A stretch of 64,000 bases of DNA from Nematocida parisii ERTm1 (Eukaryota > Microsporidia): NCBI RefSeq assembly GCF_000250985.1, contig NW_013524646.1, forward strand, positions 275,601 through 339,600. The letters are read 5' to 3'. Shown piece after piece: positions 10,741 to 40,343 of this stretch. The position numbers were made by a program, and so were the translations under genes. The notes under the pieces are model-generated. The model saw only the letters and a list, made by a program, of their open reading frames with translations, did not search any database and was not told the DNA's origin. Each line of letters begins with the position of its first letter. The first letter of the stretch is position 1.

Positions 10741-10867
10741 CTACATAAGTTAAATAATTTAAAATATAATAATAATAGTACAATAAGTAATATATATTAC
10801 ACATAGTACAATAAGTAATGTATGTTGTGTAATAAGTAATGATTAATGTGTAATAAGTTATATATTT
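10741..10867. repeat. first cluster of the TGTGTAATAAGT dispersed motif
   Basis: Copies of TGTGTAATAAGT and close variants (GTACAATAAGTAAT) start here in + orientation, right after the ARP5 promoter. This is the left boundary of the motif; I see none between 1 and 10.7 kb. Confidence 0.7.
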
Positions 10868-11035
10868 ATGATGATACCACCAGTCTCGTATGAGAATCCA
10901 ATGGCGATATGTCAGTGTGACAACCCGCACGATGATCCCGACAAAACAAGGCCAGATCACAGATCCGTGTATCAACTACTGGCTAGCCACCTTGAGACAT
11001 TCACACACTTTATGGAGAGACTCAAAGGGCATTAA
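10868..11035 (+). CDS. 55-residue putative protein with coding-like composition
   Basis: ATG at 10868 (a second ATG follows directly), TAA at 11033-11035. The predicted peptide includes MAICQCDNPHDDPDKTRPDH and YQLLASHLETFTHFMERL. The G+C is clearly higher than in the surrounding AT-rich repeats, codon use is balanced, and the peptide has mixed, protein-like composition with an amphipathic C-terminal helix. No family is recognised. It lies directly after a 12-mer repeat cluster. It could equally be a remnant of a larger gene. Conservation in a relative would decide. Confidence 0.4.
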   Translation: MMIPPVSYENPMAICQCDNPHDDPDKTRPDHRSVYQLLASHLETFTHFMERLKGH

Positions 11036-11364
11036 CAGCTTACTTCAGCACCAGATCTAACGCAGCTGTACTATTAATACTTCAAGTCTGCACAAGCATA
11101 GGCCAATTTCTAAATAGAATAAAACACCTTCCCTTTCACTCTCCTATATATCTTGGCTATGTATCAGAACAGCTACAGATATTACTCCTTGTGAACACGT
11201 CATAAATATCTATTACACCACTAGAATCAACTATGTTATATGGACATATTACAGTACTACAGTAGTATCATTAACTAACTGCCTTCTGCTGGCCATCATA
11301 AATGTATAATAATTACAGTTTGTATAAAATATTTTAATTTTTCCGTTTTTTTAAAAGCATAAAT
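11036..11364. other. non-coding spacer
   Basis: 329 bp of ordinary composition without the 12-mer. No ORF or tRNA-like element was seen. A TAAAATATTTTAATTTTT stretch lies about 20-40 bp upstream of the next ATG. Confidence 0.4.
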
Positions 11365-12654
11365 ATGGAAAATATTTTATTTTTTATGGAAGGATATATT
11401 GATGATGAAGAATTAAGAATAGAATTACAGAAAGAAATCGGTCACAAAAAAGGAAGAATAGCACGTAGTGATATAGAAAAAATATATAAAATAATAACAG
11501 ATATTAACAGAAAAACCCCAATATTTGAAGATTTACCAGAATCACTGACTAATTTGGCATATAATATATTTTACATGCAAATATATAATAGAACTCGGGT
11601 CTGTGATTATAAAGATATTATATTAAAAATCAATGACTCTATAACCCAAACATCTGAAATTATAGATATGATTAAAGAAGAAGCAGAGGCATTAGACAGT
11701 GGAAGTAAAAAAGAGGCATTTTATAAATTAATAAGTAATAATCATAGTATTATAGCACAATTATATAGGCATAGAAAGAATTTCTATGATTCTTCTATTA
11801 ATGTACTGCGTGAGAAAGCAGACAGATCAGAACTAGGTGAAGAAATAACTTCAAAAGATGCAATACTTAAACTATATGAGTTAACTGAATCAGGAGAGTG
11901 TTCTAGATTACAGAGAGTGTTAGATATACTAATAAAACATGGTGATAAACTAACTATAGTTGATAAGAATGGAGAAGAACAATCAAATGCAAGTGATTTA
12001 AAGCTAACTGACGATGATATTTATTCATTTCAATTACTTGCAAGAACAGAACGTTCGGATTTTGATTCTTTTACTTATGACATTATAAATGGTTTAATTT
12101 ATAATTTAATTCAAGTTCAAGATAAAGATAAAAAATTACATACTTCTATTGCGTGGTTATATTATACAATATATAAGATGTCTACTATGGAGCATGGATT
12201 TAGTTTAGGTAAAGATGAGAACAAAGATAGAATTAAGACATTCTTAGATCAACTGAAGAATGTGAAAATTATTGGTATTTTAGATAATAAGTCTATTCTA
12301 ACGATATTAGGTGGGCACAGTAATGTATTAGACCATAAAGATTTTAATATTAGTAATTTTAGAAATAACGTAATTTCTGGCTATTTAAAATCAATAATAT
12401 CTGATGTTTGTGGTATTACAGGCAAATCTATAAAAGAGAATACAAAAAATAGAAATGGTGGTACTATAGATACATCTAAAAACAAAGAAACAGGTGGTAC
12501 TATAAATACATCTGGTACTACAATCAAAGGAATGCGCACTACAACTATAATATTTATTGCAATAATTATGATTGTTATAATGATTGTTTTTAGTATAATA
12601 TTCTTATATCCTAATGAAACAAACAAAATTATGAATATTTTAAATATTATGTGA
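11365..12654 (+). CDS. unknown protein with C-terminal membrane anchor
   Basis: 429 residues, ATG at 11365. The soluble part (1-about 370) is helical and charged with no domain I recognise. A Gly/Thr/Asn-rich linker with near repeats (NGGTIDTS, TGGTINTS) precedes a single hydrophobic segment of about 20 residues (IIFIAIIMIVIMIVFSIIFL) near the C-terminus. Only about 16 residues follow, as in tail-anchored proteins. There is no signal peptide. Codon use is very AT-biased, like other genes of the central block. It is likely lineage-specific; a membrane-tethered cytosolic function is all that can be inferred. Confidence 0.6.
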   Translation: MENILFFMEGYIDDEELRIELQKEIGHKKGRIARSDIEKIYKIITDINRKTPIFEDLPESLTNLAYNIFYMQIYNRTRVCDYKDIILKINDSITQTSEIIDMIKEEAEALDSGSKKEAFYKLISNNHSIIAQLYRHRKNFYDSSINVLREKADRSELGEEITSKDAILKLYELTESGECSRLQRVLDILIKHGDKLTIVDKNGEEQSNASDLKLTDDDIYSFQLLARTERSDFDSFTYDIINGLIYNLIQVQDKDKKLHTSIAWLYYTIYKMSTMEHGFSLGKDENKDRIKTFLDQLKNVKIIGILDNKSILTILGGHSNVLDHKDFNISNFRNNVISGYLKSIISDVCGITGKSIKENTKNRNGGTIDTSKNKETGGTINTSGTTIKGMRTTTIIFIAIIMIVIMIVFSIIFLYPNETNKIMNILNIM

Positions 12655-13362
12655 AGGCAAAAATGAATTTTGGGTTATTCGGGTTATATGTGGGTGTGCA
12701 TGTTCGAGACTGATCTGCCAGTGTGCGAACACGTGCAGTGATCATGTTAAGATAAACGGCCTAGATATAAGAATAAGTATATCAAATTCAGACTAGTATC
12801 ACATAATTAAACAAATCATATAACTATAGGGACAGTTCAGTGCATGGTCTAGTACTATTATGACTATGTGTACGTCCTTATACTATAATTATTATAATAA
12901 AGAGTATATCTTTATCTGTATTTATTTTTAGACTGTATTATCTGGGTAAGGATAGTGTTATACATTGTGTAATAAGTTATATCGTATTTGTTATACATTG
13001 TGTAATAAGTTATATAGTATTTATTACATGTAGTACAATAAGTATTATATGTAGTGTAATAAGTTATATTCATTTGTATATTATAATATATTGTGTAATA
13101 AGTAGTATTAATTATATAATGTGTAATAAGTTATGTTATAATGTGTACCAGTTTATTAAAATAAAATTAATTTATTTTTATATAAATATAATTTACACAA
13201 TATGTAATAAGTTATAATCAATACGTAATATATATTGTATGTTGTGTAATAAGTTATATATATCTATATATTATTAATATATTGTGTAATAAGTTATATA
13301 TCATGTGTAATAAGTTATATACTATTTATTATGTAGTATGTAATAAGTTATGTTATAATTTA
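12655..13362. repeat. spacer with dense TGTGTAATAAGT repeats
   Basis: 12655-12955 is unique AT-rich DNA with a pair of GGGTTAT words at 12671-12689 and no ORF of note. From about 12957 to 13356 the 12-mer TGTGTAATAAGT(TAT) recurs about a dozen times in + orientation, separated by short irregular AT-rich stretches. Spacing is irregular, so it is not a simple tandem array. Confidence 0.85.
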
Positions 13363-16095
13363 TTACTTATCCAGATATATCCGGTATGAGTATAAAACTG
13401 CTTTATATTTTCGTATACCAGAACTTTTTACACATAGTCTCATTTTTTCTTGTACTAATACTTGGTATACTGTCCTAATATATACAGGAGAAGTATCCCC
13501 AGTGTAAATAAGTGTAATACTATTATTATACACAATAGAATCATAACAGTACTTAATGATATTAGTGTACTTAGTCTTATTATGACAGGAAATACCTAAA
13601 AATATTAAAAATATTTCATTGGATTTCCTTATATGGCAATTACCGTTATAACGGATATTTTTTGTTTTTTTAACAATTTTTACTAATTTTTTAATATAAT
13701 CAACTGTATTACCGTTATTACTTATACAGTCAAGTACACCCAATTTGATCTTTATAGGGGCGTATTTAAGCAGTTCATATACAGAATATGTATTAGGCCA
13801 GTCTAACCCTATAAAACTTTTAAACCATTGTGTAAGAATTTCTGGTGAGTTTATACTTATTAAATACTCAAGAATTTTAAGTAATTGTGTAATATGTATT
13901 GGTATATTTAAGTAATTGTGTAATAAGTCTAAGTGTAATAATTTCTTACACTCGCTGTAAATGCCTGTATAAATCACAATTGGCAGTAGAATACTTTGTA
14001 CACAATGATCACTTAATTCTTCACTTCCTAGTATATTAGTAATAAATTGTATCGATAGTTTTGACTTTTTTAAATACACAATGTGTAATAAATAACACAC
14101 CAAAATATCTTCCTTATAAAAAATATTTTCTATTCTGCCGCCAAGAAATAATCTGTCAACCTTATTTTTATCGTTATTTATAATTAAATTAACGGTTTCT
14201 ATTAAATAATTAATATTGCCGGTATTTTCCTTATTTAGTAATCTTAACTGCATTTTTAAAAAATTTAAAAATAAAAAACCATAAAAATTTTTGTTTCTTT
14301 TTTTAACATAATCCACCTTATATCTAAGCCAATGCTCTGCCGTATCGGGTAATTGATGAATTTTTCTTTTTTCTGTATAAAAATCAATACCTGACTCATT
14401 TATATCCAATATAATCCCTTCTTCTTGTTCATGTGTTATAAACCTAATAAATATCTTACCGAATACATCATAAGTCTTATTTTTAGGTATGTTTAAAATA
14501 CTAAAATTTTCTATAAAAATTTTTATATCTAAATCTTTTGTATTTTTGTTTTCCGTATTAGGAAATAAATAATAAGATTTAAATAACGGTTTTAAAAATT
14601 CTTTAGTATATAATTCAATTTCCTTATATAACATGCCAGTATTACCATATTTACGGATATTCTCCTTAAACATAATAAAATGCTTATTTCTTGTATGATT
14701 ACTAGTTAGCTTAGATATAACCTCAAGCGTACTTATTATGCCTTGTGTATTAAATAATGCACTATTTTCATTAATTATACCATAAAAGGAAGAATTCCAA
14801 GTTTTGCCTATTTCAGTTGATAAATCCGTTGGAAAATAATTTTTTACTTTTTTAATAAAATTAATTAATTTAAAATTTGCATTTGGTAGATGATCAGTCG
14901 TATACTTATGAGTTATTGGGTTATAAGTTATGCACTTAATTAATTTTAATAACCAGATTCCACCTGTTGGTTGAATATATTCTCTATTTAGGGTTACATT
15001 CGGGTTATGCAATATAATTGGTAAATTATTTGAAATAGTCCTATTTTTATACTTTACTAATTCATTAACAGGAGAATACCTGAAAATTCTGTTGGATGGC
15101 AATACTTCTATAAAATATTTTTTATATAATGAATTTGCAAACTTTTTAGTATTACTTAATATGGAAATATCCGTTTTTTTTGTATTTTTAGTGGTATAAA
15201 TAGGCGTATTCATACACTCATATAATAAATCGTATACTGTCCGTATAAAACCAAGCATTTCTTCTTTTTTTGTGATATGCTCATATATATACGAATAAAT
15301 AAGAATCTTTGGATTGTATAAAAATTTTGCAGTGTAAAAATTTTCGTATGTTTCAGGTTCAGTGTAGTTATATTTTTCTATAATTGGATTATTTCTGTTA
15401 TTTATGAAAAAGTTTATGATATTTTTTGTTTTTTCTTGTTTTACCGTTATTTCTTCGTTATTTTTAATGAATTTCAGGTGCAAATCAATCATAAAATGTT
15501 TTTCTGTTGAATTAAATTTTTTTAGTATAAGAAAATCTTTGTCATTGATTTTTTGTACAAAAAGGGAAATATTCAATCCTTCAGAAATTAAAAAAAGTGA
15601 TGCTAATACTTTGTGTACATACGGTAATATATCTTGGTGTTTTAAGAATATAGTTAATCCATCTGTTAATCCATCTGATAAGGGAGTATTAAATTTATCT
15701 GTATAAGTAAACATATTAATTAATGTATTATGATACTCTTTTATGTATTTAAATCTTTCTTCTCCCTTATTCTCCCTATCAAAATAATCATAATAAACAT
15801 CTTTATAAGGGTATCTTTGGTATAAAGCATTATTAGAAGAGTCTTTGTAGGTTTGTACAGTTGATTTAATCTCTATTTCTTCTGCGTAGTTCCTTTTATT
15901 GTATATGCCACCACTTTCATACAATAAATATGCCATATCAAAATTTAGTAAGCTATGTGTATTAATTAATATCCATTTTGTTAGATATTTCTTGACTATT
16001 TCATTATTTAATAATTCTATTTCTTCTGGTGATAATAATTGTGTTGTATTTACTGTTATTATAGATATTAGCAGTAATAATAGTTTAATTTTCAT
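13363..16095 (-). CDS. large secreted protein, family A
   Basis: 910 residues. It starts MKIKLLLLLISIITVNTTQ, a clear signal peptide, with no later membrane segment. It is paralogous to the protein at 53051-55762: shared order of elements is YHNTLINMF, then VLASLFLISEGLNISLFV (versus ILASLLLLSEGVNIPIGV), then FLILKKFN, then the segment around KFLYNPKILIYSYIYEHI (versus KFLNTPRFLIQMYIHEFI), and PNANFKLINFI. Such large signal-peptide families with no known domain are typical of Nematocida and are thought to act at the host interface; that role is inference. The coding DNA is extremely AT-rich and contains several copies of the local motifs TGTGTAATAAGT and CCGTTAT. Confidence 0.7.
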   Translation of the reverse strand: MKIKLLLLLISIITVNTTQLLSPEEIELLNNEIVKKYLTKWILINTHSLLNFDMAYLLYESGGIYNKRNYAEEIEIKSTVQTYKDSSNNALYQRYPYKDVYYDYFDRENKGEERFKYIKEYHNTLINMFTYTDKFNTPLSDGLTDGLTIFLKHQDILPYVHKVLASLFLISEGLNISLFVQKINDKDFLILKKFNSTEKHFMIDLHLKFIKNNEEITVKQEKTKNIINFFINNRNNPIIEKYNYTEPETYENFYTAKFLYNPKILIYSYIYEHITKKEEMLGFIRTVYDLLYECMNTPIYTTKNTKKTDISILSNTKKFANSLYKKYFIEVLPSNRIFRYSPVNELVKYKNRTISNNLPIILHNPNVTLNREYIQPTGGIWLLKLIKCITYNPITHKYTTDHLPNANFKLINFIKKVKNYFPTDLSTEIGKTWNSSFYGIINENSALFNTQGIISTLEVISKLTSNHTRNKHFIMFKENIRKYGNTGMLYKEIELYTKEFLKPLFKSYYLFPNTENKNTKDLDIKIFIENFSILNIPKNKTYDVFGKIFIRFITHEQEEGIILDINESGIDFYTEKRKIHQLPDTAEHWLRYKVDYVKKRNKNFYGFLFLNFLKMQLRLLNKENTGNINYLIETVNLIINNDKNKVDRLFLGGRIENIFYKEDILVCYLLHIVYLKKSKLSIQFITNILGSEELSDHCVQSILLPIVIYTGIYSECKKLLHLDLLHNYLNIPIHITQLLKILEYLISINSPEILTQWFKSFIGLDWPNTYSVYELLKYAPIKIKLGVLDCISNNGNTVDYIKKLVKIVKKTKNIRYNGNCHIRKSNEIFLIFLGISCHNKTKYTNIIKYCYDSIVYNNSITLIYTGDTSPVYIRTVYQVLVQEKMRLCVKSSGIRKYKAVLYSYRIYLDK

Positions 16096-16205
16096 TTTAT
16101 TTCATATAATAAAATTTTAATATATATTTTATAACTGATATTTCCTTATATAGATATTTTTAATTATGACATAAAATAAGAAATTTTTGTTTACTATTTT
16201 ATTTT

Positions 16206-16750
16206 TTATGATATGTCAATACATTATACATAATATATAATAAATCATAAGAATATTTAGTGTATTGTGTAGTAAGTTATGTTGTATTGTGTAATAAGTA
16301 ATGTTATAGTGTAAAAAGTAATAGATATTTTAGTGTATTGTGTAATAAGTAATAGTATAATCAATAGATATTTTAGTACAATGTGTAATAAGTAATAGAT
16401 ATTTTAGTGTAATAAGTAATAGTATAAGTAATAGAATATAATACATGATGTGTAATAAGTAATAGATATTTAGTGCATTGTGTAGTAAGTTATGTTGTGT
16501 TGTATAATAAGTTATGTTGTATTGTGTAGTAAGTTATGTTGTATTGTGTAATAAGTTGTAATAAGTTCTGTTATGTATAATAATATTTAGTGCATTGTGT
16601 AGTAAGTTATGTTATGTTGTGTAATAAGTAATAGTATAATCAATAGATATTTTAGTACAATGTGTAGTAAGTTATGTTGTATGTGTAATAAGTTGTAATA
16701 AGTTCTGTTTACCTATATGTATTATTGTACATTGTGTAATAAGTTATAAT
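16206..16750. repeat. dense TGTGTAATAAGT/TGTGTAGTAAGT cluster
   Basis: About twenty copies of TGTGTAATAAGT and a TGTGTAGTAAGT variant in + orientation. Longer units recur, for example blocks of TTTAGTGTATTGTGTAATAAG and AATAGATATTTTAGTACAAT, suggesting local segmental duplication on top of the 12-mer. No ORF. Confidence 0.85.
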
Positions 16751-17514: not shown

Positions 17515-17935
17515 AAATACATTGTGTAATAAGTAATACTTAACACACAGTATATAATATATTATAACTTATTACTACTTATTATACATAGTAACATAAC
17601 TTATTATACATAGTACAATACTTAATAGTCTATTACCATTATATAACATAACTTATTACACATATAACACACCTTATTACTACTTAATACACATAGTACT
17701 ATATATTATACATAACTTAATACACATATAACATAACTTAATACACATAGTGCATAACTTATTACCACTTATTACTCTATTACCACTATATATTATTACT
17801 TATTACTCTATTACTACTTATTACTACTTATTACCACTATATAACACACCTTATTATTACTTATTACTCTATTACTACTTATTATTACTTATTACTCTAT
17901 TACTACTTATTATTACTTAATACATATGAATATTC
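17515..17935. repeat. ACTTATTACACA (inverted orientation) cluster
   Basis: One + oriented copy at about 17521 is followed by many copies in the opposite orientation (CATAACTTATTACACATA), then a TTATTACT/ACTATTACT simple-sequence tract to about 17930. The switch of orientation at about 17550 differs from the flanking clusters at 16.2-16.7 and 19.1-19.7 kb. Confidence 0.85.
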
Positions 17936-19073: not shown

Positions 19074-19124
19074 CTGAAAAATATTTTACATGGAAGGAAA
19101 TTTTAATAAGAAATACAGTTAATA

Positions 19125-19700
19125 AATAATAATACACTATATGTAATAAGTAATGCATTATGTATAATAAGTAATAATAAGTTATGATTAATGTGTAATA
19201 AGTTATGATTAATGTGTAATAAGTAATGCATTATGTGTAATAAGTTATGATAAGTCATAGTATATGTGTAATAAATAGTAATAAGTTATGATTAATGTGT
19301 AATAAGTAGTATAGTGTATAATAGAATATAATAATGTATGTGTAATAAGTAATACATTATGTGTAATAAGTAATAATAAGTCATAGTATATGTGATAGAG
19401 TAATAAGTAATAGAATATAGTACTAACATAGTAATAAATAGTAATAATGTATGTGTAACAAATAGTAATAAGTTATGTACACTGTGTAATAAGTAATAGA
19501 ATATAGTAATGTATGTGTAATAAGTAATAATAAGTCATAGTATATGCAGTATAAGTTTTGTACATTGTGTAATAAGTAATAATAAGTAATAGAATATAGT
19601 ACTAATAGAGTAATATATAATAGTATATGTATAATAAATAATAATAAGTTTTGTACACTGTGTAATAAGTTTTGTGCACTGTGTAATAAGTATTAATATT
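19125..19700. repeat. TGTGTAATAAGT cluster in the DRG1/eRF1 divergent spacer
   Basis: Roughly twenty copies or near copies in + orientation in the 680-bp region between two divergent start codons, so the promoters of both genes lie in or beside the repeats. An AATATTTTATTTTTATTTTTT stretch sits just after the last copy, about 50 bp before the eRF1 ATG. Confidence 0.85.
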
Positions 19701-20989: not shown

Positions 20990-21328
20990 ATAATAAAATA
21001 AATTATAACGGGTTTATTAAAATTTTTATAAAAAATATACAAAAAATATACATAAATAACGGATAAATAACGGATTAAAATATAATATACATAAATAACG
21101 GATTAATAATATTAATATACATAAAATATACATAAATAACGGATAAATATGTATATAAATAACGGTTTAAAATATAATATACATATATAACGGATAAATA
21201 GATATAATATATATAAATAACTGAAATTACCATTTAATTGTATGACTAACCAGTTTATTAATAGGTTCAAATAGTTCTCTTCACTCCTTAAGTACTCCTT
21301 AAGACCTCTTCTATTAGTCAGTGGTGTA
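20990..21328. repeat. ATAACGGAT repeat array downstream of eRF1
   Basis: Between about 20999 and 21220 the word ATAAATAACGGAT (variants AACGGTT, AACGGGT) recurs about ten times, separated by ATATACATA. It is a distinct repeat type from the 12-mer, in the spacer between convergent eRF1 and PUS7. The remaining 100 bp to 21328 hold a small CTCCTTAAGTACTCCTTAAG duplication near 21284-21303. No ORF. Confidence 0.8.
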
Positions 21329-23348: not shown

Positions 23349-23880
23349 TTATTACATATAGTATAATAAATAGTATTAAGTAGTAATAGTATAATAAATA
23401 ATAATAGTATAAATAATAAAATATAATGATACATGTGTAATAAGTAATGGGTAATAAAGTAATAAAATATAATAATATATGTGTAATAAGTAATAGGTAA
23501 TAAAGTAATATAAGTAATAGGTAATATAATAATACATGTGTAATAAATGATAAGTAGTATAATATAATGATATATGTGTAATAAGTAATATATATTGTAC
23601 TATGTGTAATAAGTAGTATAATATAATAATACATGTGTAATAAATAGTATAATATAATGATATATAATAATACATGTGTAATAAGTAATAAATAGTATAA
23701 TATATTGATATATGTGTAATAAGTAGTATATATCTATATTATTAAGTGGTAATAGAGTAATAAATAATAGTATGAGACATATATTATTATATATAGCATA
23801 TTAAGTATTATATATTATACTATGTGTAATAAGTACTATATTGTGTATTGTATATTATTTATTATACAATGTGTAGTATA
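23349..23880. repeat. TGTGTAATAAGT cluster
   Basis: Many + oriented copies mixed with TAATAGTATAATA simple sequence and an ATATAATGATATATGTGTAAT higher-order unit. An open frame runs through the last part from about 23822, but only because the repeat has no stop in that frame; the real start is taken at 23924. Confidence 0.8.
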
Positions 23881-23923
23881 TACTGTACTATATATATTGG
23901 AATATTTTATTATTTTTTTATTA

Positions 23924-24718
23924 ATGGCTTATAATAGAGAAGTATTAAAGTTAAAGGATTTCCAAGGTGATCCATTGGAATATGAAGAGTTCTTCAGAAG
24001 AATCCTTTATAATATGAATAGTACAGATATACAACATACTGAAATAGTTAATGACCTGCTTTTCTTATTTAATACTAACAGGAGTAGTACAGTAATAGAA
24101 TGTGCTATTAAGACTTTATACGCTATGTGTATAAAATTATCACCAAGTATGATAGTCCCTGTGATAGAGATAGGCAGTGTATTAGAGACGTATTCCTTAT
24201 GTATTAATAACTACACAGAAATAAACCAGAATGAGTACACAGCCTGGATAGAGTTAGTAAGACTTATTACACAATCTACTATAATTCATAGAGAGTGTGT
24301 ATTTATTATGGTATGTAGAATAAGTTTTATTGAAGAAATAAGAAAAATGGTAAAAATTTACTTAAATGAAAATATTTCAATTAATTCAATTAAATTATCA
24401 ACGGTTATTTTGAAATATAAAAATATTTTAAATGAAAATGAAATATTTTTATTACTAAAAAAGTACATTACTCTATTAGGAAATAACGACATTTTTATAT
24501 CTAAAGAATCTTCTTTTTTTATTAAAGAATATTCTAACTGTAATAATATAGATATATACAGTATAATTAAAGAAAACCAGTTAGATATAATCGATTCATT
24601 AGATAATTACATAAGGGACATATTCCAGCACTTGCCATTACTTACTAAACAATGTGTAATAAGTACACTAAAAACCACAAATTTAATTAAAATACCGTTA
24701 GAAATAAAAATATTTTAA
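23924..24718 (+). CDS. helical-repeat-like protein of unknown function (first frame)
   Basis: 264 residues from MAYNREVLKLK at 23924; the frame is open to 23822 but that part is repeat DNA. The protein is almost all helix with Leu/Ile-rich pairs (for example SSTVIECAIKTLYAMCIKLS, followed by a VIE...VLETY helix) reminiscent of HEAT/ARM or adaptin-like solenoids, but no family is assigned. A + copy of the dispersed 12-mer occurs in frame and encodes CVIS near residue 243. The stop at 24716-24718 follows an A/T run, and a coding-like tail continues in the -1 frame (24712-24900), so the annotated C-terminus is probably not the real one. A GGAATATTTTATT box lies about 25 bp upstream of the ATG. 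Confidence 0.5.
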   Translation: MAYNREVLKLKDFQGDPLEYEEFFRRILYNMNSTDIQHTEIVNDLLFLFNTNRSSTVIECAIKTLYAMCIKLSPSMIVPVIEIGSVLETYSLCINNYTEINQNEYTAWIELVRLITQSTIIHRECVFIMVCRISFIEEIRKMVKIYLNENISINSIKLSTVILKYKNILNENEIFLLLKKYITLLGNNDIFISKESSFFIKEYSNCNNIDIYSIIKENQLDIIDSLDNYIRDIFQHLPLLTKQCVISTLKTTNLIKIPLEIKIF

Positions 24719-26530: not shown

Positions 26531-27138
26531 ATATACTAAATATAACTTATTATACTATTATTAATATACTAATAGACTAATGTATACAGGTATACTAATA
26601 GACTAATACATGTATACATAGTATATACAGTAGGACTAATATATATACAGGCACATAGTATATACATATAGGTATACTAATAGACCAATGCAATACCTTA
26701 CTATTACTATTACTTATATACAGTACATATATACTACTACTAATACCTTACTACTGTGTATATACTATATACTATACTACCTATATATACACTACTATTA
26801 TTACTGTGTATATACTACTATATACTACTACTTATACCTATTATCCCTTACTTATATACTACTGTGTATATACTACTACTTATACCTATTACTTATACTT
26901 CTAATACCTATTATATGTATACTAATACCTTACTACTACTGTGTATATACTTCTACTTCTATTCCCTTTACTCTTCTCCTTCTATTATCCCTTTATTTAC
27001 TTCTCCTTCTACTTATCCCTTTATTTACTTCTCCTTCTGCTGCTTCTACTACTCCTTCTCTGTTCATATAAAGATATTAAATTATAACACTGGTCAGAAT
27101 ACTTCTAATCCTTCCTCAACAGATATTCTGGAGGATAT
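26531..27138. repeat. low-complexity tract TACTA/CTACTTATA/CTTCTCC
   Basis: 26560-26930 is a degenerate ATA/CTA microsatellite (ACTACTACTTATATA, TATACTAATAGACTAAT). 26930-27060 becomes a pyrimidine-rich CTTCTCCTTCTA tract with a TCCCTTTATTTACTTCTCCTT unit repeated three times. The open frames here exist only because the repeat lacks stops. The last 60 bp are unique. Confidence 0.8.
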
Positions 27139-27278
27139 TCAATAATTCATCAAAAGAGACAGAAGTGTAAATATACTTACACTCCTAAATATCTCTAACC
27201 TTCTAATTAAAGAATTGAAGTTGTTCTTCCTCATTCCAGTATCGAGCGAGCACTATTTTGTAGTAACTCGGATAGCAT
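27139..27278 (-). other. possible small gene with a frame break (uncertain)
   Basis: On the minus strand an ATG at 27278 opens a short frame (MLSELLQNSARSILE, then TGA). Directly overlapping that stop, the -1 frame reads MRKNNFNSLIRRLEIFRSV and continues to a TGA at 27139-27141. Together they would give about 47 helical residues. A TATAAATA word lies about 55 bp upstream. Length is too short to trust; it may be chance. Confidence 0.18.
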
Positions 27279-27424
27279 ACTTACTATACAAATGATTCTG
27301 TAAAGTATCGCCTCACTGAAAAATATTTTCGCATGCGTATTTATAGAAAATAAAAATAAAAAAAGACTGTTTCCGCATAAAATATAAATATAAAAAATTA
27401 AAAAATAAAAAAAAGAACTGTTTT

Positions 27425-28247: not shown

Positions 28248-28634
28248 TTAATCTAAACATGCTAATGAGAGTCCTCTGATCCGTGAATCTCTTCCTTCCT
28301 GATGGTTACTCAGTATGACTATCTGTACATATGCACAGTATTCGTCTATTGGTATGGTTATAATAGGCATTTTGTCTGTTATTACTGTGCTTTTTAGTCC
28401 GCTTGCCATTTCCCGTGTCTTTCCGTATCTTATTTCTATATCTTTAGGTATATAACTCTTGTCCTGTGTATGGCCTAAGTTCATCCTTATACTGACTAAC
28501 TTCTTTATCTGGTTAAAGTCTATTTCTATGTAATGTGGAAGGTTTCCATCTGTGTGCCAGAACTGTTCTAAATTATCACTGAAGAGTTCTTCTAGTCCAT
28601 GGCCTGGCTTATACGTACTTAAACGGGCCTCCAT
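28248..28634 (-). CDS. APC10: anaphase-promoting complex subunit 10 (DOC1)
   Basis: 128 residues, essentially one DOC domain (human APC10 has 185). Matching elements: STYKPGHGLEELFSDNLEQFWHTDGNLPHYIEIDF (human [35 protein letters not shown]), SYIPKDIEIRYG, and VQIVILSNHQEGRDSRIRGL (IAVLANHQNGRDTHMRQI). APC10 forms the D-box co-receptor with Cdc20/Cdh1 in the APC/C ubiquitin ligase. The C-terminal IR tail used to dock on APC3 is not present; the protein stops soon after the domain. ATG at 28634. Confidence 0.93.
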   Translation of the reverse strand: MEARLSTYKPGHGLEELFSDNLEQFWHTDGNLPHYIEIDFNQIKKLVSIRMNLGHTQDKSYIPKDIEIRYGKTREMASGLKSTVITDKMPIITIPIDEYCAYVQIVILSNHQEGRDSRIRGLSLACLD

Positions 28635-28654
28635 AAAAATAAATTATAAGACAC

Positions 28655-29272
28655 TGTATAATAAATTATAAATAATACACAATGTGTAATAAGTAATAAA
28701 TAAAATAATATATGTGTAATAAGTTGTATACATTGTGTAATAAATAATGTATAATCAGTGTATAACTTAATAATAAATGTGTAATATATGTTTAATAAAT
28801 GTGTAATAAGTAATGTATAATCAAATAGATATTGTGTAATAAGCAATAATATATGTGTAATAAATAATAGTGCATTGTATAATAAGTTATGGTATATGTG
28901 TAATAAGTAATAGTGCATTGTATAATAAGTAATATATATTGTATAATAAGTTATGCTATATTGTGTAATAAATAATAGTGTATTGTGTAATAAGTAATAG
29001 TGTATTGTGTAATAAATAATATATATTTAGCACACTGTGTAATAAGTCTTGTGCATTGTGTAATAAGTTATGCTATATGTGTAATAAATAATAGTGTATT
29101 GTGTAATAAGTCTTGTACACTGTGTAATAAATAATAGTGCATTGTGTAATAAGTCTTGTACACTGTGTAATAAGTAATAGTGTATTGTCTAATAAGTCTT
29201 GTACACTGTGTAATAAGTTATAGTATTAATTATATATTGTCTAATAAGTTGTATACATTGTGTAATAAATCA
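28655..29272. repeat. very dense TGTGTAATAAGT cluster
   Basis: The densest cluster: about 25 copies in + orientation in 600 bp, many in a higher-order unit TTGTGTAATAAGTCTTGTAC alternating with TGTGTAATAAATAATAGTG. Its right end touches the ACS stop codon region, so it contains the 3' end of ACS and the 5' region of APC10. Confidence 0.88.
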
Positions 29273-29273: not shown

Positions 29274-30380
29274 TTATTTAGCAATACTTGATTTAGCAAA
29301 TGTGATCGAGTCAGGGTTGATGCACGTACTTATATCTCCGACCTCCTGTCCCTCTAATACTTTCCTTAGTACCCTCCTCATCATCTTACCAGTACTTGTC
29401 TTAGGTAACTCAGGACATGAAATGATCCTTTTAGGGTTAACAACCGACCCGATCCGCTTCCTTAAGACAGACTTAATATCACTGAATACGTCAGTGTCAG
29501 ATACATCACCCGACTTAACTATAAATATAGTAACACCCTGGCCAGTCACCTCATCCTCCTCTCCTAATGCAGCTGCTTCTGATACACCAGTCACTGAGCA
29601 TACGACACTTTCAATCTCTGCTGTACTTAGTCTATGACCAGCCACATTAATTACATCATCAATTCTGCCTCTGATCCAGTAGTACCCATTTATATCTTTA
29701 AGTACTTCATCACCCGTATAGAAATATCCCTTATACTGGAAATAAGCACTTTTATACCTGTCATGGTTCTTTACTATAGTCCTAGCAATACCAGGCCAGG
29801 AACCCTTAAACAGTAAAATACCAGTCTCACCAATTACTTCAACCACACCATCAGATGGACCAACAGCAGAAGCAGTACCAGTAGCACTACCAGCACCAGT
29901 ACTACTTATACCACTAACACTACCAGTACCACTAACACTACCAGTACTCATACTACCTGTACCTGTACTACTTATACCACTAACACTACTAGCACCTGTA
30001 CTTATACCTGTACCACTAACACTACCAGTACTACCTGTACCTGTACTACTTATACCAGTACTTATACCTGCACTACTTGTACCATCACCTGCACCCGCAC
30101 TGCTTGTGCTGCCTTCATTGCTTGTGGTGTGCAGTCCGTCCTTCTTCATGACTATCGGTTGCATGCCAAAGAATGGGAATGAGGCACTCTCTGGCTTGTA
30201 CTCAGAAATACTTATAAGCGGTGACAGCATGACACCACCGGCTTCTGTCTGCCAATACGTATCTATGATCGGAAGGGTCCCATTCCCGAAGTACATCGAA
30301 AACCACACATACGCACCCTTATTAATTGGCTCACCAACTGAGCCCAGTACACGTAATGAGGATACGTCTATACGCCTAAG
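29274..30380 (-). CDS. ACS: acetyl-CoA synthetase, C-terminal part (second frame)
   Basis: The frame is open from 30380 with first ATG at 30308; upstream of that ATG it already encodes LRVLGSVGEPINKGAYVW, the ACS motif LR.LGSVGEPI, so translation must enter from the upstream ORF. Downstream: DTYWQTEAGG (acyl-adenylate motif), FFGMQPIV, TGDEVLKDINGYYWIRGRIDDVINVAGHRLST, and the C-terminal PKTSTGKMMRRVLRK with the conserved acylation lysine. A 90-residue Ser/Gly/Thr-rich insertion interrupts the protein between the MQPIV strand and GETGILLFKGSWPG. The enzyme makes acetyl-CoA from acetate, ATP and CoA. It is one base out of frame with 30368-31660. Confidence 0.85.
   Translation of the reverse strand, partial: LRRIDVSSLRVLGSVGEPINKGAYVWFSMYFGNGTLPIIDTYWQTEAGGVMLSPLISISEYKPESASFPFFGMQPIVMKKDGLHTTSNEGSTSSAGAGDGTSSAGISTGISSTGTGSTGSVSGTGISTGASSVSGISSTGTGSMSTGSVSGTGSVSGISSTGAGSATGTASAVGPSDGVVEVIGETGILLFKGSWPGIARTIVKNHDRYKSAYFQYKGYFYTGDEVLKDINGYYWIRGRIDDVINVAGHRLSTAEIESVVCSVTGVSEAAALGEEDEVTGQGVTIFIVKSGDVSDTDVFSDIKSVLRKRIGSVVNPKRIISCPELPKTSTGKMMRRVLRKVLEGQEVGDISTCINPDSITFAKSSIAK
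29855..30110. repeat. in-frame low-complexity repeat inside ACS
   Basis: A degenerate array built on units such as ACTACCAGTACC and CTTATACCACTAACACTA (+ strand), encoding Ser-Thr-Gly-Ser-Val/Ile-rich sequence in ACS. Several larger sub-blocks are duplicated, indicating slippage or unequal exchange. It keeps the reading frame throughout. Confidence 0.85.
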
Positions 30381-31660
30381 TCACCTTCTGAATTATACTT
30401 CTTGTAGTAATTATCCTTATTGAATGTGTCTGTTATGCCGTGTGTGAATATAGACCGGTTACTGATCGGTGAATTAGGCACGTGATCAACAGCAGGGGAT
30501 AAGTCGTTATTAGACTCAGTTATATCGTACGGTTTGACTAAACAATCAGGTAATGACTTCTGTAGTAGCCTAATAACAGTGGGTGCAGTGTATAAATGCG
30601 TTGGTTTAATCCTCTGTATAGACCTAAATAACCGTAAGGCATCAGGGTATACGGGGACACCTCCGAATACGACCGTAGTGATACCGAGTGTTAATGGACC
30701 GTATAGTACATAAGAATGACCAGTAATCCAGCCTAACTCAGCCGTACAGAAGAATCTGTCACCCTCCTGTATATCAAAACAGACTAGTGTGGTTAGTGCA
30801 GCGTATAATAAGTACCCTGCTGTACTGTGGGATAGTCCTTTGGGCTTGCCCGTACTGCCACTTGTATACAAATGGAATAACGTGTGCTCGGATGGGACGG
30901 GTACGCAGGGAATATCCTGGACGGATAAATTTTTATTTTGTGAAATATTTTCTAATGTGTCCAGCGTACTTACAGAGTTTTTTAATTTTAAAAATATTTC
31001 ACCTGAAATATTTTCTTTATTAAAAATTAAAATACCTTTTAATAACGGATTTTTCACATTATTTTTAAGAATCTCAACGGAAATTACAACATTATTTAAA
31101 TAATCAATTTTTTTACCACCCCTGTAAGTATAATCAGCCGTAATGAGCCATACAGAATCTGAGTCCTCCATGCGCACAGAGAGACTCTCTGCACTAAACC
31201 CACCGAATACGACCGTATGCGAGATGCCCAGCCTAGCACATGATAATGATATAATTAATGCATTGGGCTCCATGGGCATATATATACATACAGTGTCACC
31301 CATTTTTATACCCTTGCTTATTAAATAGTCACTGTATATAAGTACTTGCTGTAATAGTTCTTTATACGTAATGTGTAATATATTCTCGTTGTCATCCTCA
31401 TGAATAATCGCAATTTTATCAGGGTTAGTCAGTGCATGCCTGTCCACTGCATTATAACACGCATTAATTTCACCATCCTCAAACCATTTAATACGGCAGG
31501 ATTCTTTATCTTCTGTGTGTACGGTGGTGAAGTCCTTTGAGAAATTTAAGAGGATCCTGGCTTGTTCTTTAAAGAAGTCTTCTTTATGCTCAATACTTCT
31601 TACATATTGTGTATTATATTCTGTTCTTAATTTCTTTCCATGTGCGTATACTTCCCTCAT
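30368..31660 (-). CDS. ACS: acetyl-CoA synthetase, N-terminal part (first frame)
   Basis: 430 residues from the ATG at 31660. It contains the N-terminal KWFEDGEINACYNAVDRH motif, MPMEPNALIISLSCARLGISHTVVFGGFSAESLSVRMEDS and the AMP-binding P-loop LYTSGSTGKPKGLSHSTAGYL. It also has ELGWITGHSYVLYGPL and PTHLYTAPTVIRLLQKS. It ends at TAG 30368-30370 just before the LR.LGSVGEPI motif, which continues in the -1 frame. ACS supplies acetyl-CoA in cytosol and nucleus, for example for histone acetylation. The whole gene is otherwise complete and the break lies between 30368 and 30380. Confidence 0.88.
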   Translation of the reverse strand: MREVYAHGKKLRTEYNTQYVRSIEHKEDFFKEQARILLNFSKDFTTVHTEDKESCRIKWFEDGEINACYNAVDRHALTNPDKIAIIHEDDNENILHITYKELLQQVLIYSDYLISKGIKMGDTVCIYMPMEPNALIISLSCARLGISHTVVFGGFSAESLSVRMEDSDSVWLITADYTYRGGKKIDYLNNVVISVEILKNNVKNPLLKGILIFNKENISGEIFLKLKNSVSTLDTLENISQNKNLSVQDIPCVPVPSEHTLFHLYTSGSTGKPKGLSHSTAGYLLYAALTTLVCFDIQEGDRFFCTAELGWITGHSYVLYGPLTLGITTVVFGGVPVYPDALRLFRSIQRIKPTHLYTAPTVIRLLQKSLPDCLVKPYDITESNNDLSPAVDHVPNSPISNRSIFTHGITDTFNKDNYYKKYNSEGDLGV

Positions 31661-31737: not shown

Positions 31738-32409
31738 TTACCTGTTGAATAATTGGTATAATTCTGTTATTGTGCTTAATAGGGTTAGTGTGGGAGTAGT
31801 GGGGTTAGTCGGGTTATTATTGGACAGGACTTTTTGGTTATTGTGTAATAAGTCTTGTCTAATTGCATTATTTATTGGCACTGTATTATTAATTAATTTA
31901 TTATTAATTAATAAATTATATTTAATTTGCTTGTATAACTTATTACTACTATTGGTGGTAAGTTCTGGACTGTTTAAATTTAAATGTGCAATGTGTAATA
32001 AATAAAGGTCTGTATTATGCTGGATGACTGCCCAGTGGTTGGAAATGAGTCCTATAAGGAGGGATTCGTTAAGAATGGATTCATTGTGGGAATCGGGTTC
32101 TGTTTGGGGTGAATTTGTGTGCTGAGTTTCATCAGGTGATTTTTTTATTAAATTACTGTATTTGGTAATATTACTGTATTTGGTAATGCTGTTATTTTTA
32201 ATTTCATTAGCAATATTTTTTATTGGTAGATTTTGTTTTATCTCTGGTTTTATTTTCGGGTTAGTTCGGGTTATTTCTGGTGTAAGGAATATAGTTAGTG
32301 GGTTTATTCTGCTGTCTGTCCTGACCCGTTTTGTTACTGGTGTGCTACTCCCGGATACTGCCGTATACACGTCTGGTTTTATTGTAGGGTTGATTCGGGC
32401 TGTGTCCGT
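31738..32409 (-). CDS. MLH1: MLH1-like mismatch repair protein, C-terminal part (third frame)
   Basis: The frame is open from 32409 (no ATG near its start) and carries KRVRTDSRINPLTIFL, which equals the conserved KMVRTDSREQKLDAFL of MLH1. Further on, SNHWAVIQHNTDLYLLHIAHL matches PQWALAQHQTKLYLLNT, the start of the PMS-interaction domain. The end LLSTITELYQLFNR resembles the MLH1 terminus LANLPDLYKVFERC without its last Cys. Most of the C-terminal dimerisation domain between these two points is missing, so it is strongly shortened. Copies of the dispersed 12-mer lie inside, in frame. Confidence 0.72.
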   Translation of the reverse strand, partial: TDTARINPTIKPDVYTAVSGSSTPVTKRVRTDSRINPLTIFLTPEITRTNPKIKPEIKQNLPIKNIANEIKNNSITKYSNITKYSNLIKKSPDETQHTNSPQTEPDSHNESILNESLLIGLISNHWAVIQHNTDLYLLHIAHLNLNSPELTTNSSNKLYKQIKYNLLINNKLINNTVPINNAIRQDLLHNNQKVLSNNNPTNPTTPTLTLLSTITELYQLFNR

Positions 32410-33537: not shown

Positions 33538-33956
33538 AGTATAGAATATAATACACAATGTGTAATAAGTTATAGCAAGTAGTCTAATTGTGTAATAAGT
33601 TATAATAAGTGATAATAAGTAGTATATTATTTATTGTGTATTGTGTAATAAATAATGTACATAATGTAATAAGTTCTGCTATATGTTTAATAAGTCTTGT
33701 ACATTGTGTAATAAGTGATAATAAGTAGTATATTATTTATTGTGTATTGTGTAATAAGTTCTGTTATATGTGTAATAAGTCTTGTACACGGTGTAATAAG
33801 TTATAATATATTATCTATTATCTATTATATATTATTATTAATGTATTATGTATTATGTATTAGTATATTATCCCGTTTATTATATACTGTATTATATATA
33901 TTACTTATTGTATACTGTATTATATATATTACTTATTATATACTGTATTATATGTC
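33538..33956. repeat. TGTGTAATAAGT cluster
   Basis: About ten + oriented copies between 33556 and 33810, with a repeated block (GATAATAAGTAGTATATTAT, twice), then a TATTATATACTGTATTATA simple tract up to the zinc-finger stop codon. Confidence 0.82.
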
Positions 33957-34382: not shown

Positions 34383-34399
34383 AATTTATAAATTATTTT

Positions 34400-34870
34400 T
34401 ATACATATAATATTACACATAGTATAATAAATAATACTTAATACGCATAGTATAATAAATATACATAACTTATTACGCATAACATAATAAATACTTGCTA
34501 CTTATACATAACTTATTACACATAACATATTAAGTGGTAATTACACATAACTTATTACACTATTACTACTATATATTACTATATATTACTTATTGCACAT
34601 AACATAATATATATACATAACTTATTACACTATTACTACTATATATTACTATATATTACTTATTGCACATAGTATAATAAATACTTACTACTTATACATA
34701 ACTTATTACCACTATATATTACTTATTACCACTATATATTACTTATTATACATAACATAATATATACTTACTACTACATATTACTTATTACACTATTACT
34801 ACTATATATTACATTATTCATAACTTATTATTTATTCTATATTGAGTTTAAAGTCTTACCCTGTATAACT
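34400..34870. repeat. ACTTATTACACA (inverted) cluster
   Basis: Orientation flips again relative to 33.5-33.9 kb. It has two nearly identical blocks of about 100 bp (starting near 34550 and 34618: CTTATTACACTATTACTACT, then ATATATTACTATATATTACT), a clear segmental duplication. No ORF. Confidence 0.85.
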
Positions 34871-34877
34871 TATTATA

Positions 34878-36335
34878 CTATGTGTATATAGTCATGTCCT
34901 TATACTCATACGACCTGGTAGTGCACTGTGACTCGCCGTCTGCTAGACTTAATATGACCCGGTCATCAGTAATTACTTCCATTTCAGTTATCCTCATGCC
35001 GTCTAATTCAATGCACCCATAAAATACTCGCTCAACACGGTTTTTGCCTAATTTGTATAATTTGGCGGTTTTTTTGTCTGAAATTTTTGATAAAAATTTT
35101 TCAGTTATAACGGACTTTTCTTCATCTTCTGTTATAAAAATAAGAATATGGCCGTTTGAATAGAAAAAGTCTTCTATCGTGACTAACTCTTTCATCACGC
35201 GGTATATAACACCATCCGTAGTAAATACTAATGCATTGTCTAAATGATACACAGTGGATTCAGGTACGTAAAAATTTTTACTGTCTAATTTGGTAATAAA
35301 CCGTTTTTCTGGATTTTCATTAAAATTTGGTAAAAACTTCTCCTCCTCTTCTTCTATTTCAGGTATTTCTAAGTGCTTCCTGGAATTCTCTAATAAATAA
35401 ACATACTCACACACCTTACTGGGTATGTTTATCACCTTAATCATGGTTTTTGTTTTAATTACTATATATCCCGATTTGGTAATAAAAATTTTCCTGTCTA
35501 TAACGGACTTTCCTTTAAAATTTTCTCTAATTAGGGAATAATCAACAGTAATAAACGTATTACTAAGTGAGTCACAATCAGTCAGTAAAATATTCCCATT
35601 CCTGGCCTGTGATATAATTAAGTCGCCGGCTACTCGCTGTATAAATATAACAGGAGATGAGTGCCACGTAACCCGCCTTAGCACATTACTTTGTATACAA
35701 TATATTAAAAGTAATGCACTCGTGCCAATTATAAAATATTTTTCAGTCTTCTCAAGTGAAAATATTTCCGCTTTGGGAATTTTAGAACCTGAAATTATTT
35801 CTTGGGTTACTCGGGTTATCATATCATACTGATATAACCCGTAATTGTTAATATAATATATTACACAATCTATTATAATAAATATAGGGTTAGATCGGGT
35901 TATATCTAATGTACTCACAGTATTATCATTATACACAGAAATAGTACCAGATACGTTATCATACTTATATAAGAATAACTTATCCTTATAAATATACATA
36001 TCTGGATATGTATTACACTGTATACGCCCTATAAACTTAAATTGTTCATTACTTATTACACACTGCTCATTACTTTTTACACATTGCTCATTACTTATTA
36101 CACACTGTTCTATAAATTGTTCATTACTTTTTATACATTGTGTATTATAATATACACTCTCTCCTATAATAATGTACATATACTCGTTAATTAGCATAAA
36201 TTTATCAAATTCTATTTTAGGGTTAATTCGGGTTATTTCCTTCATATTCTCTATTGAATATATACTAATAAAGCCACCCTGCATTATATAAATAGAATTA
36301 TTGCTCACACTAACTGAACACTTTTTATTACACAT
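34878..36335 (-). CDS. WD40/propeller-like protein, possibly UTP17 (WDR75)-like
   Basis: 485 residues, ATG at 36335. Repeated short beta segments without strong WD dipeptides suggest a diverged propeller. The segment RRVTWHSSPVIFIQRVAGDLIISQARNGNILL resembles the HWHSSPVNSLAFSADGTYLLSGG..GVLVLW stretch of WDR75/UTP17 of the t-UTP complex; this is the only specific hint. An acidic linker (EIPEIEEEEEKF) precedes a second propeller-like half. Residues about 70-95 consist of heptads CVISNEQ/CVKSNEQ, encoded by copies of the dispersed DNA 12-mer. Start codons of this gene and the next are 17 bp apart. Confidence 0.45.
   Translation of the reverse strand: MCNKKCSVSVSNNSIYIMQGGFISIYSIENMKEITRINPKIEFDKFMLINEYMYIIIGESVYYNTQCIKSNEQFIEQCVISNEQCVKSNEQCVISNEQFKFIGRIQCNTYPDMYIYKDKLFLYKYDNVSGTISVYNDNTVSTLDITRSNPIFIIIDCVIYYINNYGLYQYDMITRVTQEIISGSKIPKAEIFSLEKTEKYFIIGTSALLLIYCIQSNVLRRVTWHSSPVIFIQRVAGDLIISQARNGNILLTDCDSLSNTFITVDYSLIRENFKGKSVIDRKIFITKSGYIVIKTKTMIKVINIPSKVCEYVYLLENSRKHLEIPEIEEEEEKFLPNFNENPEKRFITKLDSKNFYVPESTVYHLDNALVFTTDGVIYRVMKELVTIEDFFYSNGHILIFITEDEEKSVITEKFLSKISDKKTAKLYKLGKNRVERVFYGCIELDGMRITEMEVITDDRVILSLADGESQCTTRSYEYKDMTIYT
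36050..36135. repeat. 12-mer repeat embedded in a coding sequence
   Basis: Three 21-bp units (rc TGTGTAATAAGTAATGAGCA) in tandem plus partial units, coding strand minus, encoding the C-V-(I/K)-S-N-E-Q heptads. They match the intergenic 12-mer exactly in two units and with one change in the third. Confidence 0.85.
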
Positions 36336-36352
36336 TGTATAAAAAAATTTAA

Positions 36353-39022: not shown

Positions 39023-39171
39023 AAAATAAAAATATTTATAGTTGAGGGAAGCTTAATTTATTAAAAATGTACTTATATGGAAATTTAATTAAAAATAAAA
39101 ATATTTATAATATGCAGTATAAATAAACAAATAGAAGTAAATATAAAGAGAGCAATAAATAAGTATTAAAT

Positions 39172-39762
39172 ATGCAAATATCGCCATCTATTATATCCAC
39201 AGTGGAAGAAACAGAAATTATAACAGAAAAAAAAGTGAATTTAATTAAAAATGAACCTGACAATTTCCATATATGGAATAAAAACAGTACAGAAAATATA
39301 TTTGCAGGGTTTAATAGTGCACAGACCAAGAAAAGGTCTGTAATTAGGCCAGTTATGCTGTGTGTTAAGTATAATAATGAATTAGTCTATGACATATCAG
39401 ATACCTCAGATAATGAATTTATTATTATAGATGAAAATATGCCCGTGTCATTCAATGAGCTTACATCAGCAGTAAAGGAGAGTATGAGAATAGAAAAAGT
39501 CGTTATACAAATACTTGAAAAAAATGAAAATCTGTTAAAAAGTAAAATTTTTATAACGACAAAAGATAAAAATTTTTATATCAGTAAAAAAAGACTTCTT
39601 GGTGAGATACTTAAAACACAACGGAAAATAGAAAGAATACGGCCATTAATAATGCTTTCTGTGCAATTACCACTTGAAAATCAGATCAAGAAATTATGCA
39701 CGCTTAAAGTAATAGCAGATAAAATGTACTCAGATGAACCAAGTATATTTATTACTACATAA
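39172..39762 (+). CDS. unknown protein
   Basis: 196 residues, ATG at 39172. Not recognised. The N-terminal 60 residues are polar and probably disordered; from about 60 (KRSVIRPVMLCVKYNNELVYDI) alternating strands and helices suggest a small folded domain, possibly ubiquitin-like in its pattern (strand-turn-strand then helix). No signal or membrane segment. The stop codon is directly followed by the 39.8-40.3 kb repeat cluster. Confidence 0.55.
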   Translation: MQISPSIISTVEETEIITEKKVNLIKNEPDNFHIWNKNSTENIFAGFNSAQTKKRSVIRPVMLCVKYNNELVYDISDTSDNEFIIIDENMPVSFNELTSAVKESMRIEKVVIQILEKNENLLKSKIFITTKDKNFYISKKRLLGEILKTQRKIERIRPLIMLSVQLPLENQIKKLCTLKVIADKMYSDEPSIFITT

Positions 39763-39764
39763 AT

Positions 39765-40343
39765 TAATACACATTATATAATAAATTATAAATAGTACAT
39801 ATTGTGTAATAAGTAGTGTACATTGTGTAATAAGTAATATAAGTCTAAGTAAATAAAATATATAGTATGTTGTGTAGTAAATTATAAATAAAATACATTG
39901 TGTAATAAGTAGTGTATATTGTATGTTGTATAATATAATGTACTATGTGTAATAAGTAATATAACCCGAAGTAAATAAAATATATTGTATGTTGTGTAAT
40001 ATAATGTATATTGTGTAATAAATAAAATATATTGTATATTGTGTACTATGTGTTATAATTTTAAATACATTGTGTAATAAGTTGTAATAACTAATGAATA
40101 AAATGTAATATTTTATTTTAATAAATTGTGATTAGTGTGAGTGCATAATATATTGTATATTGTATTATAAGTAATATATTGTGTATATTGTGTAATAAGT
40201 TGTACTAAATAATAAATAAAATGTAATATTTTATTTTAATAAATTGTGATTAGTGTGAGTGCATAATATAATGTATATTGTGTAATAAATAAAATTAAAT
40301 ATTCATTGTGTACTAAGTAATTTTATTTAGAGTTAATAGCATT
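39765..40343. repeat. TGTGTAATAAGT cluster with a 56-bp direct duplication
   Basis: About a dozen + oriented 12-mer copies in the spacer between convergent genes. A block of about 56 bp, including TTTTAATAAATTGTGATTAG and GTGTGAGTGCATAATATA, occurs at about 40097-40152 and again at about 40213-40269, nearly identical. This is the right-hand end of the repeat-rich region. Confidence 0.85.

Follow-up and report, generated by a model that had tools for sequence, protein, structure and literature searches.

The 12-mer TGTGTAATAAGT, scattered through part of a 64-kb window of the genome of the microsporidian Nematocida parisii ERTm1 (the whole stretch analysed here, C1:275601-339600 of a 3.98-Mb genome in 11 contigs), appears to mark a lineage-specific family of dispersed, degenerate minisatellites, which N. 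parisii shares with ERTm5, presumably N. ironsii, and with AWRm79, probably the same species to judge from its locus tag NEIRO. We put the probability of this reading, in which the family spreads by recombination together with the gain and loss of units, at about 60%. It looks like a self-spreading repeat rather than a gene signal or a centromere present once per chromosome, and among the roles proposed in a preliminary description of this DNA, that of an amplifying element is the best fit, given the in-frame copies in genes, the block differences in the protein Utp14, a repeat loop in Nep1, and a duplication that ends in arrays.

Counting places that match exactly or with at most one mismatch, we found the word at 129 places in the window, 73 of them exact (61 on the plus strand and 12 on the minus strand). 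For 100 dinucleotide shuffles of the window, the type of control called for in the preliminary description, the mean was 1.38 and the maximum 5, and none reached 129; its claim of more than 100 copies and its coordinates were correct. It had also reported no copies between 1 and 10.7 kb and a single diverged one at 57.9 kb, and both statements agree with our count: the former interval is empty at up to one mismatch, 128 of the 129 places lie within 10826-40318, and the exception is TGTGCAATAAGT at 57905. Its claim that the word is confined to a 30-kb block is right within the window but not genome-wide, where there are 571 exact copies (264 + 307, against 0 + 1 for the reversed word), a sample of which falls on six contigs. 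The word also tops a census of 12-mers in the window and the fetched DNA, with 273 occurrences against 0.38 expected under a second-order model.

Genome-wide placement was derived from three disjoint extended sub-words with complete lists (49 + 51 + 47), which hold 147 of the 571 exact copies (26%); group numbers from this sample are lower bounds, and further copies are present near C4:14-15 kb. The sampled copies fall on C1 (36), C2 (30), C3 (36), C4 (26), C5 (14), and C7 (5), with none on C6 (324 kb), C8 (156 kb), or the three smallest contigs, whose sequence is N in parts. When copies are joined at a distance of 15 kb, 26 groups result: eight on C2, six each on C1 and C3, and two each on C4, C5, and C7, four of the 26 consisting of a single sampled word. 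The largest, with 25 of the 147 copies, is the block in the window, which is thus one island among many.

Each large contig carries several islands, and C6 and C8 carry none (in a 26% sample, on contigs not proven to be chromosomes), which argues against the centromere that had been envisaged as one region per chromosome, though not against dispersed special chromatin. Passages in reports on other microsporidia describe centromeres as unlocatable, or propose regional candidates in one species (PMC12449221; PMC10158259; PMC13174016). N. parisii has two H3 genes, one of them beside H4, neither of which is clearly CENP-A, and no clear CENP-A is found among six histone-fold matches. The two H3 genes (L034, C1:400518, and L035, C1:174765) encode near-identical N-terminal tails and different cores, and the one beside H4 has, by eye, the more diverged core. 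The starts of the 11 contigs, taken as their first 10 kb (some of it N), hold no copy at up to one mismatch, and therefore the word is not seen as subtelomeric there. Several of the contig starts (L009-L015, L018, L019) share kilobase-scale duplications of 80-98% identity, with none of the word, and distant paralogues of contig-start genes occur in the window at 13363-16095 and 53051-55762. Three consecutive TTAGG telomere repeats occur nowhere in the genome, and a plasmid collection searched with one array gave no match.

The window and the fetched loci used hold 574 places at up to one mismatch, 87 of which lie within open reading frames (ORFs) of at least 100 amino acids (aa), by which genes were approximated; conserved genes are among these ORFs, and so are some that are probably spurious. 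Most copies are intergenic, and the earlier statement that the word fills spacers stands for these and fails for the 87. Some of the fetched loci were picked for carrying the word, and therefore the spacer fractions given here are not genome-wide rates; the spacer census left out loci with more than 5000 N, 19 spacers shorter than 50 bp, and spacers with more than 20 N. Among 127 spacers of 50 bp or more, 46 hold at least three copies, and in 32 of the 46 all copies have one orientation. Array spacers are AT-richer (mean G+C 0.206, n = 46, vs. 0.277, n = 61) and longer (median 656 vs. 468 bp).

The spacing of the word had been described as irregular, and the word as not a satellite, which our counts contradict. 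Distances between same-strand neighbours up to 70 bp apart (326 pairs, in non-coding spacers with at least two copies) peak at 21 bp (98), 22 bp (36), and 28 bp (27), with lesser peaks at 31 bp (20), 43 bp (16), and 33 bp (13). The 21/22-bp spacing dominates (134 of 326), which gives the head-to-tail unit expected of a minisatellite, and the arrays reported by Tandem Repeats Finder agree. In 38 spacers with at least five copies, base autocorrelation at lags 7, 14, 21, and 28 is 0.44, 0.39, 0.43, and 0.39 against 0.33 expected from composition, whereas it is nearly flat (0.30-0.34) in 61 word-free spacers; the spacing peaks and the 7/21-bp autocorrelation together indicate a degenerate minisatellite. 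Anchored profiles from the 38 array spacers, at unlinked loci on C1-C5, share a common 16-bp core, TGTGTAATAARTWATR, followed by about five free bases, so that the unit is about 21 bp long with a 7-bp rhythm. Array lengths and ends are variable, local higher-order repeats occur (e.g., 43 to 181 bp), and arrays less than 10 kb apart share 9.0 20-mers per 1000 vs. 1.7 across contigs, a difference to which a few strongly shared pairs contribute. A 10.4-10.7-bp period, first taken as helical phasing by a bound protein, is explained by the 21-bp unit, and phasing was dropped as evidence because of the autocorrelation at 7/14/21/28 bp and the frequent 28- and 47-bp spacings. A hairpin or cruciform was likewise rejected: the folds of eight arrays range in z from -2.04 to +1.98, with two close to -2 (9 and 6 of 200 shuffles fold equally well) and the rest unremarkable.

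The suggestion that the word is a conserved core is borne out, and can be refined to the 16 bp, within which tolerance of change is very uneven. Variant counts inside one array are not independent, which counting each event once per spacer corrects in part. Over 46 spacers, single-base variant events number 1, 0, 2, and 1 at positions 8, 9, 10, and 12, compared with 18, 9, 5, 9, and 10 at the other A/T positions 1, 3, 5, 6, and 7, that is, 4 events where 40.8 are expected from the latter five (nominal Poisson P 2e-13, which is only a guide since arrays are not independent draws). T15 is kept at 98% beside exact cores. Two-mismatch copies on the major strand are less strict, with 27 of 226 changed positions at the four sites, and when one- and two-mismatch copies are taken together, the four sites account for 19 of 115 changes in 11 array-carrying ORFs vs. 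31 of 437 in spacers. The near-invariant positions suggest a sequence that is recognised by a binding protein or a copying process, and either of the two could keep them constant.

The arrays are independent of gene direction. Between co-directional genes, 8 arrays are sense and 13 antisense (P 0.38), and among spacers of at least 300 bp, arrays are present in 21 of 56 tandem, 9 of 21 divergent, and 14 of 24 convergent ones. A 3'-end signal, suggested earlier because the word contains AATAA, is not in keeping with a strand that is not fixed and with arrays in all three gene arrangements.

Arrays also lie in frame within genes. Read in the open frame, the repeat gives TGT GTA ATA AGT, or C-V-I-S, with NTHSVISN as a typical peptide, and C-N-K in the next frame. 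The Pfam cut-off was passed by 4 of the 20 array-carrying ORFs scanned: EMG1/Nep1 (E 5e-47), Utp14 (1.6e-08), a forkhead protein whose repeats precede the domain (6e-35), and a second forkhead protein in which the match ends at residue 41, shortly ahead of the repeat peptides (4e-07). A reductase-like protein with the repeat falls slightly under the cut-off, and a Protoglobin match in Utp14 and other sub-threshold rows were disregarded as chance. The second forkhead gene lies in an island at C1:40001-50000 (L021), together with a histone-fold gene, and continues into about 150 residues of repeat peptide. A search of solved structures matched Nep1, with residues 135-205, which include the repeat loop, unaligned in the two alignments shown, and gave no match for the forkhead or reductase-like proteins.

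For Nep1, the closest among the matches listed is from Nematocida sp. ERTm5 (94%), and the repeat loop is common to N. parisii and ERTm5. In an alignment with 13 of 120 listed relatives, an NTHSVISN-type peptide was not seen in the 12 others (eight named Nematocida, including N. ausubeli, N. minor, N. major, N. displodere, and N. homosporus), in which the loop is different or shorter; that of P0127 is asparagine (Asn)-rich, though without such a peptide. In the AlphaFold model of ERTm5 Nep1, 189 of 251 residues have a predicted local distance difference test (pLDDT) value of at least 90, while the repeat loop (151-200) has values of 42-60. The coding arrays thus encode Asn/Ser-rich loops that are predicted to be disordered in Nep1, the one case modelled, and the loops added to proteins by the in-frame repeat are probably floppy.

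Strains and species were compared on proteins, and unit number on one gene, Utp14, in which it varies between strains at the protein level. Utp14 carries two repeat stretches in N. parisii, ERTm5, and AWRm79, which P0244, a more distant relative, lacks. The AWRm79 protein has a 15-aa repeat block beyond ERTm5, and both carry an additional 11 aa relative to N. parisii. Such differences in whole blocks between close relatives indicate that a coding array changes by blocks that keep the frame. The N. parisii Utp14 ORF (L028, 6331-7434) departs from its 99% relative P0241 solely at the extreme C-terminus, where the reading runs on differently.

Gene duplication provides a further line of evidence. 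Window positions 10792-13022 match C1:216476-214239 in inverted orientation, with 93.5% identity over 2246 bp, and both ends of this 2.2-kb duplication fall within arrays. Between the flanking proteins of the two regions there is no similarity at E 1e-4, only the duplicated pair matching, and the linkers of the two copies in the left array are nearly identical but stand in swapped order. The duplicated 429-aa gene (11365-12654) belongs to a multi-copy family, with 27 matches in the genome that were merged by eye, dropping the window gene and 8 nearby pieces, to 18 loci beyond itself. Passages of Reinke 2017 (PMC5423893) describe four large gene families in N. parisii, often with adjacent members, and ascribe them to local duplication.

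The features in the window are as follows.

10745-10865, plus strand: array in a divergent spacer, holding the left end of the duplicated segment (left edge by eye).
10792-13022, plus strand: duplicated segment with the 429-aa gene 11365-12654; copy at C1:214239-216476.
12956-13348, plus strand: array between convergent genes.
13886-14093, plus strand: three antisense copies inside ORF 13363-16095 (minus strand).
16261-16744, plus strand: array of 15 copies (up to one mismatch), antisense to both neighbouring genes.
17523-17747, minus strand: array of 6 minus-strand copies and one plus-strand copy.
19104-19691, plus strand: array of 14 copies between the divergent genes DRG1 and eRF1.
23391-23834, plus strand: array in a divergent spacer, up to the 5' end of ORF 23822-24718, whose first ATG falls within the repeat.
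24905-25324, minus strand: array of 9 spacer copies, flanked by convergent genes and with one end close to the stop of 25337-25843 (minus strand).
28633-29270, plus strand: array of 24 copies, the richest spacer of the window.
31842-32003, plus strand: two scattered copies.
33559-33801, plus strand: array of 8 copies.
34468-34830, minus strand: array of 8 copies.
36046-36104, minus strand: three in-frame copies at 21-bp spacing in ORF 34878-36335 (minus strand), which has no Pfam match; peptide EQCVISNEQCVKSNEQCVISNEQ.
39788-40318, plus strand: array of 9 copies between convergent genes, the right end of the block.
57905-57916, plus strand: lone diverged copy beyond the block.

Other elements lie in and near the block. 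For DRG1, the closest among the matches listed is from N. minor (90%). A U3 small nucleolar RNA (Rfam RF01848, 63.7 bits) is encoded at 27088-27314 on the minus strand, and an acetyl-CoA synthetase at 29274-31660 (minus strand) is split into an N-terminal ORF (30368-31660) and a C-terminal one (29274-30308) and has another tandem repeat at 29876-30107. The spacer 21063-21221 carries a 30-bp repeat of another kind, ATAAATAACGGATTAATAATATAATATAC, and no 12-mer at up to one mismatch. Another repeat, GATATAAATAGACTAA, is dispersed over 13 exact places in the genome and codes for TDINRLN in three genes; its sites include L020 4891-6432, L028 38-2686 and 6331-7434, and the window at about 5579, and by eye 12 of the 13 places are within 10 kb of a sampled 12-mer, the remaining one being on C6. 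The word ATAACCCGAA occurs as 54 single sites in the loci scanned, including 39961, 41681, and 57978 in the window, and was rejected as a promoter element, its distance to ORF starts not being fixed.

Taken together, we propose that slippage or unequal exchange would alter the length of an array by gain and loss of units, while ectopic recombination or repair from array to array might seed new sites. Such recombination could carry genes along and so help to shuffle expanded gene families. Coding arrays would persist where the frame is kept and the position is a loop, and a sequence-specific step, either protein binding or a copying process, may keep the core constant.

Several observations weigh against this proposal. 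No array was seen arriving at an empty site, and the Utp14 array is identical in N. parisii and its 99% relative (99% over 98% of the length). At the array site, relatives carry a variable loop of other sequence in Nep1 and Utp14 (Asn-rich in P0127), and therefore growth inside a loop, or its replacement, is as possible as insertion; the comparison between species also rests on proteins. The islands demand some regional cause, and the constancy of the core exceeds what plain neutral slippage predicts. There is one clear array-to-array duplication only: of the three other paralogues of the 429-aa gene inspected with their flanks, L040 has an array about 100 bp from the end of homology, L041 has scattered copies only, and L029 gave no clear result. 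A sampled word is found no more than 10 kb away from 10 of the 18 family loci, vs. 4.2 under a rotation null (P 0.03); the same null gives P 0.13 for 5 kb and P 0.15 for 20 kb, so that the association is weak, although a uniform null gives P < 0.01 at 5, 10, and 20 kb.

The chief rival to the proposed mechanism is selection for arrays as clustered sites of a sequence-specific DNA-binding protein, by which the AT-rich islands would be organised, whether as heterochromatin, as a dispersed or holocentric-type centromere, or as nuclear anchoring, with coding copies as by-products. A protein-binding role is possible, and this account would explain why T8, A9, A10, and T12 are near-invariant and T15 nearly so when linkers are free, as well as the greater length and AT-richness of array spacers, in a phylum in which centromeres are unlocated or only proposed. 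A spacing near a 10.7-bp period also seemed to favour it, but the 28- and 47-bp spacings and the 7/21-bp autocorrelation do not fit helical phasing. Since genic copies exist and are looser at the four positions, and the sample shows several groups on each large contig, none on C6 or C8, and no clear CENP-A among the histone-fold matches, we consider selection for binding sites unlikely as the main cause. A bolder combination, which we regard as speculative and rather improbable, is a selfish minisatellite whose 16-mer is bound by a protein or repair complex of this lineage, which would nucleate islands as special chromatin and drive exchange between arrays that copies flanking genes. If this were true, the repeat would be an engine of expanded gene families and a source of disordered loops in conserved proteins, and possibly a dispersed centromere-type chromatin in a phylum with unlocated centromeres.

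It is improbable that the arrays are relics of a transposable element or miniature inverted-repeat transposable element (MITE) with surviving internal repeats. Dispersal over six contigs in both orientations would suit such an origin, and passages in PMC10969869 tell of Rickettsia palindromic elements that insert in frame in genes. However, the enriched 12-mers listed (70 and 45 rows) are parts of the unit, linker variants, or a few unrelated words, and no shared flank appears among them, terminal inverted repeats not having been searched individually; in addition, the arrays have no consistent hairpin and no constant length or ends. The low G+C content, the local higher-order repeats, and the greater 20-mer sharing between nearby arrays could instead reflect independent slippage in AT-rich DNA at each locus, with no dispersal, but the same 12-16-mer is found in 46 spacers and in genes on five contigs, and therefore an independent origin is not credible. 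Signals for transcription 3' ends or promoters, to which the AATAA and the mainly intergenic location might point, are a very poor explanation, since the arrays disregard gene direction and arrangement and the flanks of the window beyond the block, with many genes, hold a single copy. Least probable of all is an artefact of assembly or contamination: the assembly of 11 contigs may be incomplete and some fetched stretches contain N, but the window itself is without N, the arrays adjoin ordinary genes, and the same repeat peptides occur in the database entries for proteins from N. parisii, from ERTm5, and from AWRm79.

Although dispersed minisatellites as such are known, we found no description of one family shared by islands of spacers and by in-frame loops of conserved genes within the compact genome of a microsporidian. 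Titles and abstract openings of the papers listed give no account of such repeats in Nematocida, though the first N. parisii genome paper might mention them, and a term search of a paper on the genomes of nematode-infecting microsporidia (PMC10393165) showed none. Recombination mediated by the arrays, if it occurs, would explain in concrete terms how the large N. parisii gene families described in passages of PMC5423893 could duplicate rapidly and locally. Although microsporidian genomes are textbook examples of compaction, in this natural parasite of C. elegans long spacers are taken up by a 21-bp repeat, which also adds loops to conserved genes for ribosome biogenesis and transcription factors. 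With its near-invariant positions, the core also supplies a defined DNA bait for fishing out a protein of chromatin or recombination.

Human hypervariable minisatellites share a common core. They resemble the N. parisii family in having a short core at many loci, locus-specific linkers, and changes in unit number, whereas the N. parisii core is AT-rich, is both intergenic and in-frame coding, and forms islands within one compact microsporidian genome. The Asn-rich low-complexity inserts of Plasmodium are similar as Asn-rich, disordered inserts in conserved proteins, but the DNA word in N. parisii is also intergenic and is shared genome-wide. The megasatellites of Candida glabrata, as presented in passages of PMC4556013, are likewise tandem repeats over many genes of a fungus, with unexplained propagation and rearrangements nearby; their units are about 100-400 bp long, in genes potentially for adhesion, whereas those of N. 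parisii are about 21 bp long and mostly intergenic, and are also found in housekeeping genes. The Rickettsia palindromic elements, according to the portions of PMC10969869 that deal with them, are comparable as in-frame repeats within unrelated genes of a parasite, but they are about 150 bp long and classed with MITEs, whereas the N. parisii family consists of tandem arrays without consistent hairpins.

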